Source of the DNA: Candidatus Manganitrophaceae bacterium
Lineage (GTDB): Bacteria > Nitrospirota > Nitrospiria > SBBL01 > JAADHI01
Direction of reading: 5' to 3'
DNA: 42,015 nt
Assembly: GCA_013151935.1 (NCBI GenBank)
Contig: JAADHI010000056.1
Coordinates: 1-42,015, forward strand
Shown: positions 12,862 through 39,654 of the stretch, piece after piece
Layout: every line of letters starts with the position of its first letter
How positions within the stretch are numbered: position 1 is the first letter of the stretch
The notes under the pieces: model-generated
Seen by the model: the letters and a program-made list of their open reading frames with translations, nothing else
What the model was told of the DNA's origin: nothing
Databases searched by the model: none
Program-made: the position numbers and the translations under genes

Positions 12862-12891
12862 TTGTCTTAATTCTGAGTAGGGTGCTATAAT
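12862..12891 (+). promoter_or_regulatory. Promoter of the PCP_red operon
   Basis: TTGTCT (12862-12867), an 18-base spacer and a perfect TATAAT (12886-12891). The predicted leader is about 70 bases before the first gene at 12968, which has a GGGGGAG ribosome site. The divergent gap 12668-12967 holds no other feature I can support. Confidence 0.65.
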
Positions 12892-12967: not shown

Positions 12968-15679
12968 ATGTACAAGTCAATCTATATCCCGGTGGACAAC
13001 TCGGATTTTTCAAATACGGCGATCGACATTGGGATGACTCTGGCCCAGAAATTTGGGTCAAAGGTCATTGGCAGCCATGCTTATGCTGCAAAACTACATG
13101 ATAAGCGCTTCAAGCAAATGGAGGCTGGCTTGCCTGAAGAGTATCATGATGAAAATGAGTTGGAGCGTCAGCGCAAAATTCACGACTCTTTGATTACGCG
13201 GGGCTTGGAAATCATTACCGATTCCTATCTTGACATTATTGATCAAAAGGCCAGCGAAAGTAATGTGCCTGTCGAGCGGGTTTCTCTCGAAGGAAAGAAT
13301 TATAAAGTCCTGGTCGAAGACATCGTTAAAAATGGCTACGACTTGGTGATTTTAGGTGCGCTCGGTGTGGGTGCGGTCAAAGAAAGTTTAATTGGTAGTG
13401 TCACAGAGCGGACGATTCGTCGTGTCCGGCAATCGGATATTTTTGTGGTTAAGGAACCGACACTTTCGATTCCAGAAAATATGAAAAACCGAAAAATTGT
13501 TGTCGCTGTAGATGGCAGCCATCATTCCTTTGGTGGCTTCAAAACGGGATTGGCGCTTGCAAAGGCCTATGATCTGCCTTTGGATATTGTTTCGGCTTTT
13601 GATCCTTATTATCACTATGCGGTCTTTAATTCGATTTCAGGTGTCCTAAATGAAGAAGCGGGTAAGGTTTTCCGTTTTAAAGAACAAGAAAAATTACACG
13701 AAGATGTGATCGATTCGGGGCTTGCGAAAATTTATCAAAGCCATCTTGAGGTCTGCACAACACTTGCAAAAGAGGAGGGGGTGAAGATCAGTACCTCTCT
13801 CTTGGATGGCAAGCCTTTTGAAAAAGTGTTGCAATACGTCAAAAAAGAAAAACCTTGGTTGTTGATCGTCGGTCGTATTGGGGTGCATTCTGATAGCGAC
13901 ATGGATGTGGGGAGCAACTCTGAGAACCTGGTGCGCATGGCCCCTTGCAATGTCCTGATTTCCAACAAAACGTATATGCCACCCATTGACGCGATTGCTG
14001 AATATACGGTGGCTTGGACAGAAGAAGCCTCAAAACGCATGGAAAAAGTGCCGATCTTTGCGCGCGGTGTGGCCAAAACCGCCGTTTATCGTTATGCCGT
14101 CGAAAAAGGGTATTCCATCATTACGAACTCTGTTGTGGATGCTGCGATGGGTGACATCCTGCCGCAATCTTCCATCGACATGATGAAAAATATGGGCAAA
14201 ACCTTAGACGAAAAAGGCATTGACCGAAACAAAATGAAGGCCGATGATGCTGTCGTCGAAAGTTTAAAAAGTGGTGGTATTGCAGGGATGATGACGAATA
14301 TCGTCAAAGATCGTGATACCGAACGTGCCGAAAGTTATGACGAAAAAGCGAAAAATGATTTTTATGTTTGCAGCAACTGTGGTTATACGGCAAAAGGGGC
14401 AAAACCTGTCGAGTGTCCGATTTGCAGCGCAGACAGTGAGTCCTTTAACTTTTTGGATAAATCGCTCTTTGAGTCGGCAGCCAAGGCAGAAGGCGGACTT
14501 TCTTTGGAAGTCGGCTACGATGGTGTGCCTTTGAATTGGACGGAAGATGCAAAAAACACACTACGAGCAGTTCCTGCGGGTTTTGAGCGTCGTCGGGCAA
14601 AGGCAAAAGTTGAAAAGACCGCGCGAAAAATGGGGTTTCAAACCATTGCAAATGAGTTTGCAATTCGCATGATTAAAGGGCTTGATGAGATGCTGGACGA
14701 GGGTGTTGAAATTGGAGGAAATGCGATTTCAAAGGCCGTCAGCCAAATGAAAGCTGAAAAAGAGGCCGCGCAAAAACCCGAAGTTACCAAAGCCAAACCG
14801 ACAAAACCTCAGTTTACCTGGAGTGATGAAGGCATGGCGCGTATTGAGCGTGTGCCAGTGGGTTTTATGCGGGACGCGACTCGTCAGCACATTGAAAACT
14901 ATGCATTTTCCAATGATATTACACATATGACGCTTGAGGTTGTGGAAGCGGGAATTGAAAAGGCAACCTCTGAAATGGAAGCAGTGCTTTCTGGCGCGTC
15001 CAGTTTAGACGAAATTAAAAAACAAATGGCCAAAATGGCGGGGAGTGACGACGCGGTATCTGAAAACGAGAAGCCGCTGCACTTCTGTGGGATGTGTGGA
15101 CATGTTGTGCGAAACCTCCCGGAATCCTGTCCTGTTTGCGAAGCGAAAAGTGCCCGTTTTGTCCTGATGCGTGAAGAGATTGATTATTTTATCTGCATGG
15201 TTTGTAGTCTTGTTTCAGAAGAAAACGCGCCGGAGCCGTGTTCGCTTTGTGGTGCGGGAGGTGAATACGGGCTAAAGCTTGAGCGAAAAGAAAGTCTCGT
15301 TAAGGATGAGGCACAAATGTCTTGGACGGAAGCAGGCACAGCGATTTTGAGAGAAATTCCAGAGGGTTTCATGAGAGATATGACCCGTTGGCGTATTGAG
15401 GCCGATGCCCGAAAAAAGGGTGTGTACCAGATTGACCCTTCGGTCGTGCAGGCAAAATACACGCAGTGGACGCAGGTCTCTAAAAAAGTTGAACGGCGTC
15501 TTTCATGGGATGATGAGGCGATCACGCGGATTTCACGTATTCCTTCTTTTGTTAGAGGGACTGTTGTGCAGGAGATTGAATCCTGTGCTGATGAAAAGAA
15601 TCTGACACATGTGACCGTAACATTACTCGATGAAGTGACTGAACGCTGGGCCGAAACAATGCGTCGCCAGGGATTCTAA
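12968..15679 (+). CDS. Tandem universal-stress protein fused to five PCP_red domains and three rubredoxin-like knuckles
   Basis: A 903-residue soluble mosaic. Two universal-stress (Usp) domains, about 1-170 and 176-335, each keep the nucleotide-binding signature: GALGVGAVKESLIGSV and GRIGVHSDSDMDVGSN. Five PCP_red-type domains follow (Trp at 350, 524, 618, 786, 847), each of the form W-x3-A/G-x3-(6 to 8)-P-x-F-R and then a charged helix. This is the domain that ends subunit B of light-independent protochlorophyllide reductase. Three C-x2-C...C-x2-C knuckles start at Cys 468, 707 and 743 and resemble the rubredoxin-like end of rubrerythrin; they could hold iron or zinc. It is the first gene of the operon, 35 bases before the radical SAM gene. 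Function unknown; an ATP-sensing redox scaffold is inference. Domain calls are by eye. Confidence 0.88.
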   Translation: MYKSIYIPVDNSDFSNTAIDIGMTLAQKFGSKVIGSHAYAAKLHDKRFKQMEAGLPEEYHDENELERQRKIHDSLITRGLEIITDSYLDIIDQKASESNVPVERVSLEGKNYKVLVEDIVKNGYDLVILGALGVGAVKESLIGSVTERTIRRVRQSDIFVVKEPTLSIPENMKNRKIVVAVDGSHHSFGGFKTGLALAKAYDLPLDIVSAFDPYYHYAVFNSISGVLNEEAGKVFRFKEQEKLHEDVIDSGLAKIYQSHLEVCTTLAKEEGVKISTSLLDGKPFEKVLQYVKKEKPWLLIVGRIGVHSDSDMDVGSNSENLVRMAPCNVLISNKTYMPPIDAIAEYTVAWTEEASKRMEKVPIFARGVAKTAVYRYAVEKGYSIITNSVVDAAMGDILPQSSIDMMKNMGKTLDEKGIDRNKMKADDAVVESLKSGGIAGMMTNIVKDRDTERAESYDEKAKNDFYVCSNCGYTAKGAKPVECPICSADSESFNFLDKSLFESAAKAEGGLSLEVGYDGVPLNWTEDAKNTLRAVPAGFERRRAKAKVEKTARKMGFQTIANEFAIRMIKGLDEMLDEGVEIGGNAISKAVSQMKAEKEAAQKPEVTKAKPTKPQFTWSDEGMARIERVPVGFMRDATRQHIENYAFSNDITHMTLEVVEAGIEKATSEMEAVLSGASSLDEIKKQMAKMAGSDDAVSENEKPLHFCGMCGHVVRNLPESCPVCEAKSARFVLMREEIDYFICMVCSLVSEENAPEPCSLCGAGGEYGLKLERKESLVKDEAQMSWTEAGTAILREIPEGFMRDMTRWRIEADARKKGVYQIDPSVVQAKYTQWTQVSKKVERRLSWDDEAITRISRIPSFVRGTVVQEIESCADEKNLTHVTVTLLDEVTERWAETMRRQGF

Positions 15680-15714
15680 AATGATGAAGCCGGTTTTAAG
15701 AGCAGGTCAATAAT

Positions 15715-17097
15715 ATGGCGTATCAGGCCTATTCTGTTTCATGGAATTTAACACAACGCTGTAATCTTTTTTGTACGCACTGTTACATGAGTGCTTTTCC
15801 GAATGCCGATGTTTCTGGCGATCTTACGACGGAAGAGTGTTTTAAGGTGATGGACGACATCGAAAAGGTTAACCCCAATGTCTTTCTTATTTTGACGGGC
15901 GGGGAACCGCTTGTTCGAAAAGATATTTTTGATATTGCCGGATATGGTTCGGACAAGGGTTTCACCTGTGTCTTGGGTACAAATGGTGTGCTTTTGGGTA
16001 AAACCGAAGCACGTAAAATGCGTGAGAGTGGTTTGCAAGGGGCATCAATCAGTCTTGATTCGGTTGATGCTGTCAAGCATGACCAATTTCGCCAGCTTCA
16101 GGGTTCGTGGAAAAATGCCATTCGTGGGATTGAACATTTAAAAAACGAGGGACTTGATTTCTCAATCCACATGAGTGTCATGGATTGGAATGTTTCTGAA
16201 ATTCCCCTAATGATTGACTTGTCGCGGAAACTGGGTGCAAAAGTGCTCAACTTCTTTTTCCTCATTCAAACGGGGCGTGCCGAAGGCATCACAGATATCA
16301 ATCCCAGACAGTATCGAGAGATTCTGACCTACCTCGCACGGGCACAAGGGGTGGGTTCTGAAAAAATGAGTGAAGAGAATATTTTTACGCAATACGATGA
16401 TCCCTGGACGCAGCCTGCTGGACGCAGTCATGATTTGATCCTGCGTGCCAAATGTGCCCCGCATTTTAGAAAGGTGATTTATGATCTTGATCCGGAATCC
16501 CCTTTACTCAAAAATTATGCGCAAGGCAGTTGCCCTGCGGGCAAATATTATTGCCGCATCACGCCTGAAGGCGACATTACCCCTTGTCCTTACATGCCGG
16601 TCAGTGCCGGAAATCTAAGAGAGCAGTCTTTTGATGATATTTGGCACAATTCGCCTATTTTGAATGATTTAAGAGATCCCGTTTTAGGTGGACGTTGCGG
16701 CGAATGTGAATTTTCGGAAATGTGTAGTGGGTGTCGTTGTCGTGCTTATGCTGCCCACGATGATTATTTGGCCGAAGACCCGGCGTGTGATTATCAGCCA
16801 GGGCAATATGGCGGAGAAAAAATTTCACTGGGTGCGGATCAGACCTTTGGACTGGAAGTGAAGATGACCTTAGCGTGGGATGCCGCTTCGCTTGAGCGTT
16901 TAAATGGGCTGCCTTCATTTGCGCGCGGCATGGTTTCAGGTGGTGTAGAGCGTTATGCCAAGGAAAATGGCATCACCCACATCACGCCGGAAGTGATGCA
17001 GATTGTACGTGAGGCGGCGGAACTTCGGATGGGACGACGTTTCAATTTTACAGAATTTGATCGTGGTGTTCCTGAAGGTTCTGTATCTAAAAAGTAA
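15715..17097 (+). CDS. AhbD/NirJ-like radical SAM-SPASM enzyme with C-terminal PCP_red domain
   Basis: The 460-residue protein opens with SVSWNLTQRCNLFCTHCYMS: the radical SAM cluster Cys are 16, 20 and 23, followed by TGGEP at 61-65 and GTNGVLL. The pattern (HDQFRQLQGSWKNAIRGIEH, TGRAEGI) is that of the heme-pathway enzymes AhbC/AhbD/NirJ. The SPASM part carries Cys at 273, 280, 290, 328, 331, 337, 340, 342 and in DPACDY, with ITPEGDITPCPYMPVSAGNL strongly AhbD-like; it should bind auxiliary Fe-S clusters. After about residue 385 it adds a PCP_red domain (Trp388, LPSFARGM, ERYAKENGITHITPEVM), which is not part of AhbD or NirJ. Substrate unknown: tetrapyrrole or peptide modification are both possible. 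Next gene follows after 13 bases. Confidence 0.88.
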   Translation: MAYQAYSVSWNLTQRCNLFCTHCYMSAFPNADVSGDLTTEECFKVMDDIEKVNPNVFLILTGGEPLVRKDIFDIAGYGSDKGFTCVLGTNGVLLGKTEARKMRESGLQGASISLDSVDAVKHDQFRQLQGSWKNAIRGIEHLKNEGLDFSIHMSVMDWNVSEIPLMIDLSRKLGAKVLNFFFLIQTGRAEGITDINPRQYREILTYLARAQGVGSEKMSEENIFTQYDDPWTQPAGRSHDLILRAKCAPHFRKVIYDLDPESPLLKNYAQGSCPAGKYYCRITPEGDITPCPYMPVSAGNLREQSFDDIWHNSPILNDLRDPVLGGRCGECEFSEMCSGCRCRAYAAHDDYLAEDPACDYQPGQYGGEKISLGADQTFGLEVKMTLAWDAASLERLNGLPSFARGMVSGGVERYAKENGITHITPEVMQIVREAAELRMGRRFNFTEFDRGVPEGSVSKK

Positions 17098-17110
17098 TCA
17101 AGAGGTTTTT

Positions 17111-18100
17111 ATGTTTGGATCAAAAAAAGAAGTCTCGCCCATTACCTGGACCCCAGAGGCTGAAAAACGTCTCAAAAAAGCACCTTTTTTTCTGCGAAAA
17201 ATGGTACGCAGTCTTTCTGAAAAAAAGGCGACCGAGCTTGGCATTACTGTTATTACCCCGGAAGTCTTGGCGCAGTTTAAAGATAAGATGATGACTCCAA
17301 TGGCGGCTCAGGGGACGGGTGCGGTCCATGATGAAGCAGGTGTTGAAACAAAGGCCCTGGCTTGGACACGTGAGGCGACCGAACGTCTTGAAACCGTTCC
17401 TCAATTTATGCGGAGCATGATCAAAAAAATCGCGGAAGAAGTTGCACTTGAACGCGGACACCTTGAAGTGGACATGGAATTGCTTAAAAAGGCTGAATCC
17501 CTTGGTGATGCAAAAGACGAGCAGGCGGGCCCCGCCATGGCCTGGACAGATGCCGCAACTGTGCGACTTGAACAAAAAATCGCAGAAGCACCGGAAATGG
17601 CACGTGATTTTGTGCGAGACATGTTGAAAAATGATGCCGAAGATTTAGCCCGAGAAATGGGGATTGAACGGATTGATTTGGCTGCGGCGACCCAGATTTG
17701 GGATTCGCCCAAGAGTGATATTACTTGGAGTGTGGAAGCGGAAAAGCGCCTGATGACCTCCCCTGATTTTGTGCGCAGTGGCATCAAAAAAGCGGCTGAA
17801 CGCCGCGCGCGTAAAATGGGCTTGACCACCGTGACCTCTGAGCATTTGACCCAGTTTAGAAACAAAGCCATGATGAAGGCCATGAAACGGCTGCGGACCT
17901 TTGGTTATGATGAGATGACTTTTGATGGTTTTGAAGATGCAAAAGAGAATATACGTCGTCTTCAAAACAATCCCGAAGCTGCAAAACGACTTGACGATAT
18001 TAAAGACTACATGGGGAAAAAGGGCAAAGTCGGTCTTATTGATGAAGAGATGCTTGAGCAGATGAAGGATTATCTTAAAGATCCTTCAAAAAAAATGTAA
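17111..18100 (+). CDS. Protein of four PCP_red repeats
   Basis: Start at ATG 17111 after AAGAGG; the frame continues upstream into the radical SAM gene but has no ribosome site there. The 329-residue protein is almost entirely PCP_red-type domains, beginning at ITWTPEAEKRLKKAPFFLRK, LAWTREATERLETVPQFMRS, MAWTDAATVRLEQKIAEAP and ITWSVEAEKRLMTSPDFVRS. Each keeps the Trp, the acidic-Ala pair, the Pro and an Arg-rich helix. The third has a short insertion before its Pro. A last 70 residues are charged helix (GFEDAKENIRRLQNNPEAAK). There are no Cys, membrane segments or signal. Together with its neighbours this makes ten PCP_red copies in three consecutive genes. Role unknown: substrate or partner-binding scaffold is inference. 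Confidence 0.85.
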   Translation: MFGSKKEVSPITWTPEAEKRLKKAPFFLRKMVRSLSEKKATELGITVITPEVLAQFKDKMMTPMAAQGTGAVHDEAGVETKALAWTREATERLETVPQFMRSMIKKIAEEVALERGHLEVDMELLKKAESLGDAKDEQAGPAMAWTDAATVRLEQKIAEAPEMARDFVRDMLKNDAEDLAREMGIERIDLAAATQIWDSPKSDITWSVEAEKRLMTSPDFVRSGIKKAAERRARKMGLTTVTSEHLTQFRNKAMMKAMKRLRTFGYDEMTFDGFEDAKENIRRLQNNPEAAKRLDDIKDYMGKKGKVGLIDEEMLEQMKDYLKDPSKKM

Positions 18101-18132
18101 GTACGTCTTTAATCTATCTTCTGTGAGGTTCT

Positions 18133-18573
18133 ATGGACCCTAAAGCAACGATAATCCATTGGCTACATTTGATGGGGGCAATTTTTTGGATTGGTGGCAA
18201 TGCCTATCAGGTTTTTGTCTTGATGCCCTTTCTGAAGTCGGGTCAACCCCCGAAAGAGATTCTGAAAAAAATATCAAAACGTTTTATTATTAGCTCTTCC
18301 ATTATTTTGATTGTTCTTGTTATTACTGGAGGGCTCAATTTTGGTTATAGGGTTGCGGGTGTTGAAGAAGTTCCAGGGGCTTACGTTTCAGCCCTGGCCA
18401 TCAAAGTTTTTTTAATCGTTGGCATGGGTTCTGTGCTCGTTTTTGGTTTTGTCGGTTCTTCAAACGAAGACAGTGAGACTCCTGTACCCAGTTTGCGTCA
18501 TGCGAAAGTGAGTCTTGTTTTTGGGGTTCTCATTGTTTTTGTTGCGGCAATGCTAAGGCATTGGCGCTTTTAG
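18133..18573 (+). CDS. CopD/HemJ-like four-helix membrane protein
   Basis: A 146-residue integral membrane protein with four hydrophobic helices: about 7-31 (IIHWLHLMGAIFWIGGNAYQ), 50-70 (FIISSSIILIVLVITGGLNF), 84-106 (ALAIKVFLIVGMGSVLVFGF) and 124-142. The His-x2-His and FWIGG in helix 1 are shared by CopD-type proteins and by HemJ-type oxidases, in which His residues bind heme. I cannot separate these two by eye. It follows the PCP_red repeat gene by 32 bases and is probably its membrane partner; the nearby AhbD-like radical SAM enzyme would suit a heme link. Good ribosome site (GAGG) before the ATG. Confidence 0.75.
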   Translation: MDPKATIIHWLHLMGAIFWIGGNAYQVFVLMPFLKSGQPPKEILKKISKRFIISSSIILIVLVITGGLNFGYRVAGVEEVPGAYVSALAIKVFLIVGMGSVLVFGFVGSSNEDSETPVPSLRHAKVSLVFGVLIVFVAAMLRHWRF

Positions 18574-18607
18574 TTCGCATTTAAAGAACCCCTGATTAAG
18601 GTCTTTT

Positions 18608-19168
18608 TTGAGAACTCTTAGCGTTCTTGTTCTTTCTTTCCTTTTTTTCCCAAGTGATCTTTTTGCAATTCATGCCATTTTTAAGGGAGTCATGCCGATT
18701 CCCAGAATTCATGGCACCATCAGTCTTGACATGCCGATCGAAACCTTTCGTGAAACGGTCAAGAATACAGAGGTCAGTCCTGCCGTAGGGCAATTTTTGG
18801 ATGAACATCGTTTTGACCTGAATCTAAGCGTTTTTCCCAGCAAGGTCACACAAGTACTTGCTGATTTTTACAAAGGTCGTCTGTTTCGGATCGAAATCAA
18901 TTATAAGGCTGTTTCTAGCAAAAGCGCTGATCTTGAAAGCTTAATTGTGAACAACAACAGGTCTTTTGGCTCACCACGAGAAAACATCTTGCCTGGCGTG
19001 CGCCTCATCTTCTGGGATGATGGGGCGACGCGACTGATCCTCCAGATTGATGATACGGATGCTGTTCTGAATTATTCCTTGACCTATATTGATAACGATC
19101 TCTTTCACACAGCCAGTCGAGATCGGGTGCAAAGAGAAACGGCTGGCCGTTCGAGCTATGGGAAATAG
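18608..19168 (+). CDS. Secreted protein of unknown function, end of the PCP_red operon
   Basis: Starts at TTG 18608, seven bases after TAAGG. The 186-residue product has a signal peptide (residues 1-20, SVLVLSFLFFPSDLFA) and a mixed alpha/beta body with IPRIHGTISLDMPIETFRET, LADFYKGRLFRIEINY and GVRLIFWDDGATRLILQIDD. The last third is a regular beta pattern. I do not recognise a family. It lies 34 bases after the membrane protein gene; a weak stem (AAAGAACC with GGTCTTTT) in that gap overlaps its ribosome site and could act as a partial terminator. Its membership of the operon is therefore likely but not certain. Confidence 0.7.
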   Translation: MRTLSVLVLSFLFFPSDLFAIHAIFKGVMPIPRIHGTISLDMPIETFRETVKNTEVSPAVGQFLDEHRFDLNLSVFPSKVTQVLADFYKGRLFRIEINYKAVSSKSADLESLIVNNNRSFGSPRENILPGVRLIFWDDGATRLILQIDDTDAVLNYSLTYIDNDLFHTASRDRVQRETAGRSSYGK

Positions 19169-19276
19169 CCTCAAAAAGCCCACCTTTTATTCTCCACATT
19201 CCTGGGGTTTTTAAAACGAAATGATCGACTGATCATGGCTCAACTTTTAAGGCATTTCTATCCAAAATCTTCCCTA

Positions 19277-38493: not shown

Positions 38494-39654
38494 ATGTATA
38501 TCTCGAAATTTGCTCACAATACGCCCGGACGCTTAGTTCAAGTTGAAGGCGTTTCGGGCATCACACACGCCTTTTTACCCAAATCCCTCCCTCCCAAATG
38601 GTCTTGGCCTACCGCACTCTGGCCCCTGCTGATGGAAGCGCACATGGCTCTGTCCCGTTTAGACGGAATGTGCAAACATTTTCCCGAGGCAAAATTACTG
38701 CTCTCCCCACTGCAAAGCCGAGAGGCCGTAAAATCCTACCAACTAGAAGGACTATTCACGATTCCTGAAAAACAGCTCTTATTTCAAATAAACCCCGAAA
38801 GGATTCGGAGTAAAAAAGATCTGCGCAATACCTATCGCGCAATTTACAACTATGAAAAAACCCTCCAGGTCTACGGCAGTCAAAAAAACCGCACACCAGA
38901 CACTCTGCCATTGATTCGTAAATTACACAAAGCACTGCTCAAAGGCATACAAGAACCAGGTGATACCTCCGGCGTCTTTAGAACACAGCTTTTTAAAATG
39001 TCAAAAGCACCCCACTACGTACCAACACCGCCTGCAGTTTTGATGCGCTGTCTGAATTTTTTCGAAAAATATCTCCGTAAAAAGACACACTACGACCCCC
39101 TGGTAAATGCCTTTCTTATTCATTATCAGTTTGAAGCCATTCATCCCTTCCAAAAATGGAATGGCCCCGTCTCTCGCCTGCTCTTATCGGTGATGCTTGC
39201 AAAAGCGTGTGGTCATTCAAACCCATGGATACATATGAGTGCTTATTTTGATCAACATGCAAAGGAATACAGAAACCGGCTTTTTTATGTCAGCTCTGAA
39301 GGAAAGTGGGAAGATTGGATTGCATTTTGCCTGAAAGGAGTTATTGCACAAGCGAAAGATACAGAAATACGCTATGAAAAATTGCTCGCACTCTCAGATG
39401 AGTTCAAAAAGTCGGTGAGCCGAATCATAGACGGAGGGTCACGTATTCAAATGATCGCCAGGGCCTTGTTCTCAGAACCCATCGTCAATGTCTCCACCCT
39501 GACAAAAACCTACGCCATCAGCAAAAACACTGCAAAATCTTATCTCAACAAGCTGATCAAAACAAAGATGTTATTAGAAATTGATCATCCCAGCGAAAAG
39601 ACCTACTACGCCCCAAAAATTCTGACCCTCATTCACCACGACAATACAGAGTAG
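38494..39654 (+). CDS. Fic domain protein with a degenerate catalytic motif
   Basis: The 386-residue protein has the Fic/DUF4172 layout: EAVKSYQLEG at 77-86 carries the (S/T)xxxE(G/N) inhibitory helix form (Ser81-Gly86), the Fic core runs about 110-290, and a winged helix ends the chain (VSTLTKTYAISKNTAKSYLN). The usual HPFxxGNGRxxR reads HPFQKWNGPVSR at 217-228: the His, Asn223, Gly224 and final Arg are kept, but the acidic metal ligand is Gln220, and the first Gly and first Arg are Trp222 and Pro225. Normal AMP transfer is therefore doubtful; a dead or altered-specificity enzyme is inference. AGAGGTAGGT precedes the ATG and an extended -10 (TGCTACAAT) lies near 38450. Confidence 0.88.
   Translation: MYISKFAHNTPGRLVQVEGVSGITHAFLPKSLPPKWSWPTALWPLLMEAHMALSRLDGMCKHFPEAKLLLSPLQSREAVKSYQLEGLFTIPEKQLLFQINPERIRSKKDLRNTYRAIYNYEKTLQVYGSQKNRTPDTLPLIRKLHKALLKGIQEPGDTSGVFRTQLFKMSKAPHYVPTPPAVLMRCLNFFEKYLRKKTHYDPLVNAFLIHYQFEAIHPFQKWNGPVSRLLLSVMLAKACGHSNPWIHMSAYFDQHAKEYRNRLFYVSSEGKWEDWIAFCLKGVIAQAKDTEIRYEKLLALSDEFKKSVSRIIDGGSRIQMIARALFSEPIVNVSTLTKTYAISKNTAKSYLNKLIKTKMLLEIDHPSEKTYYAPKILTLIHHDNTE

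Follow-up and report, generated by a model that had tools for sequence, protein, structure and literature searches.

The DNA considered here (hereafter, the window) is a contig of 42,015 nucleotides (JAADHI010000056.1) from a metagenome-assembled genome (MAG) of 2.5 Mb and 91% completeness in the class Nitrospiria (GCA_013151935.1), the closest named relatives of which are Nitrospirota/Nitrospiria MAGs, Candidatus Manganitrophus and Troglogloeales. A five-gene operon on the forward strand (12968–19168) encodes a universal stress protein (Usp) fusion, a radical SAM/SPASM enzyme, a repeat protein, a small membrane protein and a probably secreted protein (Table 1). Genes 1–3 carry ten copies, arranged as five, one and four, of PF08369 (PCP_red), a domain that is usually annotated only as a part of protochlorophyllide reductase. 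Genes encoding this domain accompany the OR-N type of cytochrome bd-like oxygen reductases, and the operon may belong to a system devoted to the maturation of these oxidases. An earlier reading of the letters alone (the sequence-only reading) had counted the ten copies by eye, and a PF08369 profile search of the three proteins bears out this count. Its gaps of 35, 13 and 32 bases between four consecutive genes are also correct; a fifth conserved gene, which follows after 34 bases, had been overlooked. The start codon of the repeat protein is ATG 17111, and the TTG at 17003 given by a mechanical open reading frame (ORF) call is incorrect. The promoter-like site upstream of the operon (TTGTCT, 18 bases, TATAAT) matches the consensus at 10 of 12 positions and is the top-scoring site of the region, in which such sites are no commoner than in shuffled sequences (10 found, 9.4 expected).

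Table 1. Features of the PCP_red operon (window coordinates; aa, amino acids).
Feature	Position	Strand	Basis
Promoter-like site, extended -10	12862..12891	+	consensus match only
Gene 1, Usp-Usp-PCP_red x5-rubredoxin-like x3 protein, 903 aa	12968..15679	+	Pfam; orthologues
Second Usp domain (aa 174-331), ATP motif GX2GX9GS at aa 302	13487..13960	+	Pfam, motif
PCP_red 1 of gene 1	14015..14146	+	54.1 bits
Rubredoxin-like ribbon 1 (C468, C471, C483, C486)	14363..14446	+	Pfam, cysteines
PCP_red 2 of gene 1	14537..14656	+	34.6 bits
PCP_red 3 of gene 1	14819..14950	+	35.8 bits
Rubredoxin-like ribbons 2 and 3, CxxC pairs aa 707/721 and 743/758	15080..15256	+	Pfam, cysteines
PCP_red 4 of gene 1	15323..15454	+	36.1 bits
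PCP_red 5 of gene 1	15506..15634	+	42.3 bits
Gene 2, radical SAM/SPASM enzyme (AhbD/NirJ2 group), C-terminal PCP_red, 460 aa	15715..17097	+	Pfam, NCBIfam, tree
PCP_red of radical SAM enzyme	16876..17004	+	46.7 bits
Gene 3, four-repeat PCP_red protein, 329 aa, conserved C-terminal helices	17111..18100	+	Pfam, model
PCP_red 1 of repeat protein	17147..17281	+	58.1 bits
PCP_red 2 of repeat protein	17363..17494	+	51.3 bits
PCP_red 3 of repeat protein, divergent, short insertion	17543..17683	+	27.5 bits, E=9e-6, below single-domain cut-off
PCP_red 4 of repeat protein	17726..17857	+	50.4 bits
Gene 4, CopD-like small membrane protein, 146 aa	18133..18573	+	weak CopD similarity
Gene 5, probably secreted 186-aa protein, N-terminal hydrophobic stretch	18608..19168	+	conserved in relatives
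Terminator-like stem-loop 3' of gene 5	19192..19207	+	consensus match only

The PF08369 profile matched gene 1 (E=2.7e-49, 165.4 bits, five stretches), gene 2 (E=7.1e-11, 42.4 bits, one stretch) and gene 3 (E=8.3e-48, 160.6 bits, four stretches) above the curated gathering cut-off of 32.5 bits, and nine of the ten single copies exceeded the same value in a domain-by-domain search of the genome (34.6–58.1 bits). The domain is the same, by Pfam and by fold, as the C-terminal domain of BchB/ChlB of dark-operative protochlorophyllide reductase (DPOR; 2KRU) and the stand-alone protein Asr4154 (2L09). These two structures were the top fold matches (probability 1.00 each; TM-scores 0.76 and 0.66 by target length) of a predicted model of the repeat protein, whose medium confidence (pLDDT 71.6) makes the fold match supportive only. 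In contrast to DPOR, the operon lacks the nitrogenase-like part, and its PCP_red domains stand in tandem, as many as five to a protein, in organisms that are not phototrophic; Pfam places no nitrogenase-type domain in any of its proteins, which thus fall outside the DPOR/BchB family. The genome has no BchB, in that none of its 13 matches to PCP_red falls in an ORF of the size or kind of BchB. Because PCP_red contains no conserved cysteine or histidine, heme ligation by the domain itself is unlikely, and a role as heme ligand was rejected; for the same reason docking is likelier than metal binding. PCP_red may be a shared, portable docking module that serves for interactions outside photosynthesis. 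A speculative parallel is that BchL, which partners BchB, and Mrp, an operon partner of zinc-ribbon-PCP_red proteins, are both P-loop Fe-S ATPases. A resemblance of PCP_red to histones was dropped, as the fold matches were non-significant (E above 0.3). A literature search returned one paper for PF08369 and none on PCP_red together with a universal stress protein or on asr4154.

Both Usp domains of gene 1 (PF00582, 112.8 bits, above the gathering score) retain the ATP-binding motif GX2GX9G(S/T), the first at aa 130, so that a link of the system to the ATP level is possible. Gene 4 scores below the cut-offs of CopD in Pfam (PF05425, 16.8 bits, cut-off 32.1) and in NCBIfam (29.5 of 195), and below that of DUF4149 (15.1 bits), and is a member of none of them; its own family shares the invariant residues W10, H12, G21, P32, T65, G66, G67, N69 and K91. 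The sequence-only reading had proposed a heme-binding-like membrane partner similar to CopD or HemJ; the likeness to HemJ is not upheld, since gene 4 has no Pfam match to HemJ (UPF0093) at E<=1. The idea that gene 4 is DUF420-like was rejected for lack of profile similarity. The product of gene 5 has a good AlphaFold model (pLDDT 84) that finds no confident match in the PDB (best E 6e-3); the protein also matches no known family and was left unassigned.

The radical SAM enzyme of gene 2 comprises Radical_SAM and SPASM domains (Pfam) in front of its PCP_red domain, and this arrangement (rSAM-PCP_red) recurs in its orthologues. Its top NCBIfam models are NirJ2 (TIGR04055, 306.7 bits) and AhbD (TIGR04545, 299.7 bits), followed by TIGR04053, of unknown function (252.3 bits), NirJ and AhbC, and peptide maturases reach at most about 154 bits. 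The enzyme thus resembles the NirJ/NirJ2, AhbC and AhbD enzymes of heme d1 and siroheme-dependent heme synthesis in its domains, its CX3CX2C motif, its auxiliary-cluster cysteines and its CAPH and TGR motifs. It differs from them in scoring about 300 bits against an equivalog cut-off of 500 in both leading models, which places it outside these families, in the additional C-terminal PCP_red domain, and in its phylogeny: all 37 module members form a clade of their own apart from AhbD (support 0.84). Identity is approximately 30–33% to AhbD and 30–38% across the AhbD and AhbD-like sets. Eleven cysteines (C16, C20, C23, C247, C273, C291, C328, C331, C337, C340 and C358) are conserved in 37 of 37 module members and in 15 of 15 AhbD proteins; because all AhbD cysteines and both motifs are retained, rSAM-PCP_red is expected to be catalytically active and to carry auxiliary clusters. 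On balance, its substrate is probably a tetrapyrrole. The enzyme, called AhbD-like in the sequence-only reading, is not AhbD. The tetrapyrrole handling proposed in that reading gains indirect support from the NirJ2/AhbD-type enzyme and from two further observations. In three f13 genomes (L, G and f label loci, genomes and families), a HemY gene (304 bits, cut-off 97.85) lies 3′ of the Usp and rSAM-PCP_red pair; since a different contig of one of them (G049) bears a hemN-hemH-hemY group of its own, the HemY of the module resembles an extra copy. In an f14 genome (G028, L172:5036-6061), PCP_red is fused to a chlorite-dismutase/ChdC-family domain (PF06778, 69 bits), and the single-PCP_red ORFs of other f14 genomes are similar in length to this fusion.

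The window genome contains two further PCP_red loci. One (L041) encodes a NUBPL/Mrp-type ATPase, a zinc-ribbon protein with two PCP_red domains (ZnR-PCP_red2) and a diiron protein of the HDO fold, which has the full six-ligand set (E60, H70, E125, H156, D160 and H163) and scores 75.9 of 200 against TIGR04305 (HDO/CADD para-aminobenzoate synthase), outside that family. The other (L042) encodes a 2Fe-2S ferredoxin-PCP_red protein and a B12-radical SAM protein (L042:5453-7042) and adjoins a cytochrome bd-like gene. The closest NCBIfam model of this B12-radical SAM protein is cyanobacterial Slr0320 (NF045585; PMC8065906), at 460 bits against a cut-off of 775 and in an organism with no photosystem; a second such protein (L075:2245-3876) is also nearest to Slr0320. 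Because the loci of relatives combine these parts, both loci and the operon can be joined as one module: Usp, rSAM-PCP_red and CopD-like genes face Mrp, ZnR-PCP_red2, HDO and repeat-protein genes in G131 (L086), the latter four form a single run in G119 (L082), and a B12-radical SAM gene lies 5′ of Usp and rSAM-PCP_red in G127 (L075). All Troglogloeales and Manganitrophus relatives with sufficiently long contigs have the five genes in the same order (L044–L049, L053 and L057); L043 begins inside gene 1. The conserved neighborhood spans diverse non-phototrophs, extending to Nitrospiraceae, Rokubacteria, Methylomirabilota and a deltaproteobacterial MAG, with the Usp and rSAM-PCP_red pair as its most widespread part, found also in several Nitrospirota families. 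The earlier view that these proteins belong together is thus sustained; it had missed the strongest association, with the OR-N oxidase, and also the partners that other loci of the genome encode (Mrp, HDO, ferredoxin and B12-radical SAM proteins). In all three f21 genomes seen (L176, L177 and L186), a B12-radical SAM gene of another subfamily is followed by a zinc-ribbon protein gene with one PCP_red domain and a leuD-like gene (by eye).

The OR-N family is named OR-N CydAA′, TO_1–TO_4 (in Manganitrophus) or NIDE0901-like in passages of published work that describe it as probably a cytochrome c-oxidizing oxygen reductase (PMC9040806, PMC12342949, PMC6606698). It is considered the main terminal oxidase of nitrite oxidizers, comammox and manganese-oxidizing Nitrospirota, yet other passages call it uncharacterized or poorly characterized (PMC10839748, PMC9040806). 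OR-N or bd-like genes are also reported from Nitrospinota and anammox genomes (PMC10839748, PMC6606698). We used as query the bd-like protein of L042 (L042:1372-3264), predicted to be an OR-N CydA from its bd-like Pfam match and its occurrence in Nitrospira and Manganitrophus; the window genome contains three homologs. All 105 genomes with an oxidase match, among 227 sampled, also encode PCP_red: 55 of 55 in Nitrospirota (148 genomes) and 50 of 50 in Methylomirabilota (79 genomes). Fisher tests gave p=2e-22 and 1e-14 for these phyla, and 1.8e-8 for Nitrospirota outside the class Nitrospiria, values that are too optimistic because genomes are taken as independent, with no correction for phylogeny. 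For this reason, physical linkage is the better argument. PCP_red and oxidase genes share a contig in 26 of the 50 Methylomirabilota genomes (manual count), with a binomial p below 1e-12 even if 10% were to share one by chance. The OR-N gene is preceded by an rSAM-PCP_red gene at a distance of 4 bases in L233 and 137 bases in L226, and by a ZnR-PCP_red gene at 23–104 bases in L222, L223 and L240. In L223, a single run comprises cytochrome c, Usp-PCP_red, rSAM-PCP_red, a 145-aa protein, Mrp, ZnR-PCP_red, OR-N and cytochrome c, and in f22 (L294) rSAM-PCP_red, Usp and oxidase genes (gaps of 15 and 22 bases) are contiguous, followed directly by a cytochrome c gene. In Nitrospiraceae (L077, L284, L285, L288, L289 and L302), a ZnR-PCP_red2 gene precedes the first oxidase gene by approximately 1.0–1.2 kb; in L285:2281-7558 and similar loci, O-methyltransferase and DUF420 genes precede ZnR-PCP_red2, a 360-aa unknown gene and the oxidase. 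DUF420, presumably the CtaM oxidase-assembly family, adjoins the module in L086 as well. In the window genome, the ferredoxin-PCP_red gene is 1.6 kb from an OR-N gene. The association of OR-N with PCP_red genes is well supported, and the OR-N oxygen reductase as their partner is new here; the passages searched on the oxidase in PMC9040806, PMC12342949 and PMC6606698 contain no mention of radical SAM or Usp genes or of a maturation system.

Domain content, conservation of the cluster cysteines, gene order, and co-occurrence and adjacency with OR-N are the computed part of this account, and a functional link of the module to OR-N appears quite probable. Given such a link, maturation would be favored over regulation, and we give a probability of about 0.42 to the proposal that OR-N oxidases (CydAA′) have a maturation system dedicated to them, probably a heme-tailoring one, to which the operon belongs. 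The radical SAM/SPASM enzyme would most likely tailor a tetrapyrrole (the side chains or ring of heme or coproheme), in the manner of the related NirJ and AhbD, and PCP_red would dock it to its redox partners, the Usp-rubredoxin fusion and the 2Fe-2S ferredoxin-PCP_red protein. The Mrp-type Fe-S carrier ATPase would join through its ZnR-PCP_red partner, the four-repeat protein would act as a scaffold for the docked parts, and the product would be handed to the membrane oxidase with the assistance of the CopD-like and DUF420 membrane proteins. It is tempting to speculate, with the odds rather against it, that the module produces a modified heme not yet described, which may be chlorin- or d1-like, and inserts it into OR-N oxidases. 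If this speculation is true, a principal enzyme of oxygen reduction in Nitrospira, comammox, manganese oxidizers and Methylomirabilota has its own cofactor pathway. A gene set that is present in every sampled OR-N genome and often lies beside the oxidase offers concrete candidate maturation genes and a reason to seek an unusual heme.

Several observations weigh against the proposal. PCP_red occurs without an oxidase match in 23 Nitrospirota genomes (15 of the f14 single-PCP_red type and four of f6) and in six of Methylomirabilota, some of these genomes being incomplete MAGs. The co-occurrence within phyla is partly shared ancestry. Among 20 loci picked by the oxidase alone, PCP_red is nearby in eight, and several of the others are short contigs; the window operon itself has no oxidase gene. 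The f21 genomes combine OR-N with the B12-radical SAM and ZnR-PCP_red pair, and no rSAM-PCP_red was seen in them. The passages found in the OR-N literature searched report no measured cofactor of any OR-N enzyme.

The same genes could instead serve redox- or ATP-controlled protection or regulation, in which Usp, the rubredoxin ribbons and the PCP_red scaffold act as sensors of oxygen or of the energy state that adjust respiration or shield the oxygen-sensitive ferredoxin enzymes of the reverse tricarboxylic acid cycle, the radical SAM enzyme making a signal or modifying a protein. The intact Usp ATP motif in most orthologs and the rubredoxin-like ribbons are consistent with such a role, as are the diiron HDO gene beside the module (L041, L082 and L086) and a gene for a putative Crp-type regulator (by eye) 5′ of rSAM-PCP_red in L294. 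We nevertheless regard regulation as unlikely: the most constant partners are biosynthetic (the radical SAM/SPASM enzyme, the Mrp Fe-S carrier and, in f13, HemY), the constant neighbor is a structural oxidase gene, and the Usp and rSAM-PCP_red pair is retained in genomes of f7 and f11, for which the searches returned no match to several heme genes. Synthesis of methyl-plastoquinone, in which the quinone ring would be the substrate of the B12-radical SAM and HDO proteins, themselves organized by the PCP_red proteins, draws on the Slr0320 match, on the slow QA to QB electron transfer of an slr0320 mutant, for which quinone methylation was not excluded by the authors (PMC8065906), and on the finding that Nitrospira quinones are methyl-plastoquinones only (PMC12324825). 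It is distinctly improbable for the whole module, in that the pair also occurs in Methylomirabilota/Rokubacteria, f7, f11 and f13, where methyl-plastoquinone is not established in the literature found, and most of the families closest to the SPASM enzyme comprise tetrapyrrole enzymes; the quinone reading may be right for the B12-radical SAM and HDO part alone. As cyanobacteria have plastoquinone and Nitrospira methyl-plastoquinone, an Slr0320-like B12-radical SAM protein may methylate quinones.

Many SPASM enzymes act on peptides, and the maturase scores noted above would fit the maturation of a ribosomally synthesized peptide or the modification of an oxidase subunit. This is very unlikely, as the operon gaps leave no space for a precursor gene, no precursor gene is conserved in the orthologous loci, and the tetrapyrrole models score far higher. 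A function of rSAM-PCP_red as heme b synthase in these organisms, equal to that of AhbD, is hardly to be expected either, even though AhbD is its second-best family and shares its cysteines. A census of heme genes by family searches (HemN, HemY, HemF, ChdC/Cld, HemH and AhbD) found that most sampled Nitrospiria lack HemN and HemF, which would favor such a role, but they possess HemY and a PF06778 protein consistent with ChdC (approximately 200 bits). Genomes of f4 and f5 contain HemF (one f4/f5 genome also HemN), and G119 and G131 among them yet retain rSAM-PCP_red (L083 and L086). The enzyme is kept across these varying routes to heme b and so does not simply catalyze their final reaction, and in G002 a true AhbD (522 bits) stands alongside rSAM-PCP_red (343 bits). 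A general role as the missing heme b synthase was rejected on the census and this coexistence. HemY had no match in the window genome, in which, at 91% completeness, gaps by chance are possible. The heme b route seems to switch within the class Nitrospiria, most members having the ChdC-type route without HemN or HemF, and f4 and f5 having HemF. Two f3 genomes of high completeness (G081 and G065) encode HemY and the ChdC-type PF06778 protein and have no match to the ferrochelatase PF00762; their iron may be inserted by another chelatase.

Elsewhere in the window, a Fic/DOC family protein is encoded at 38494–39654.

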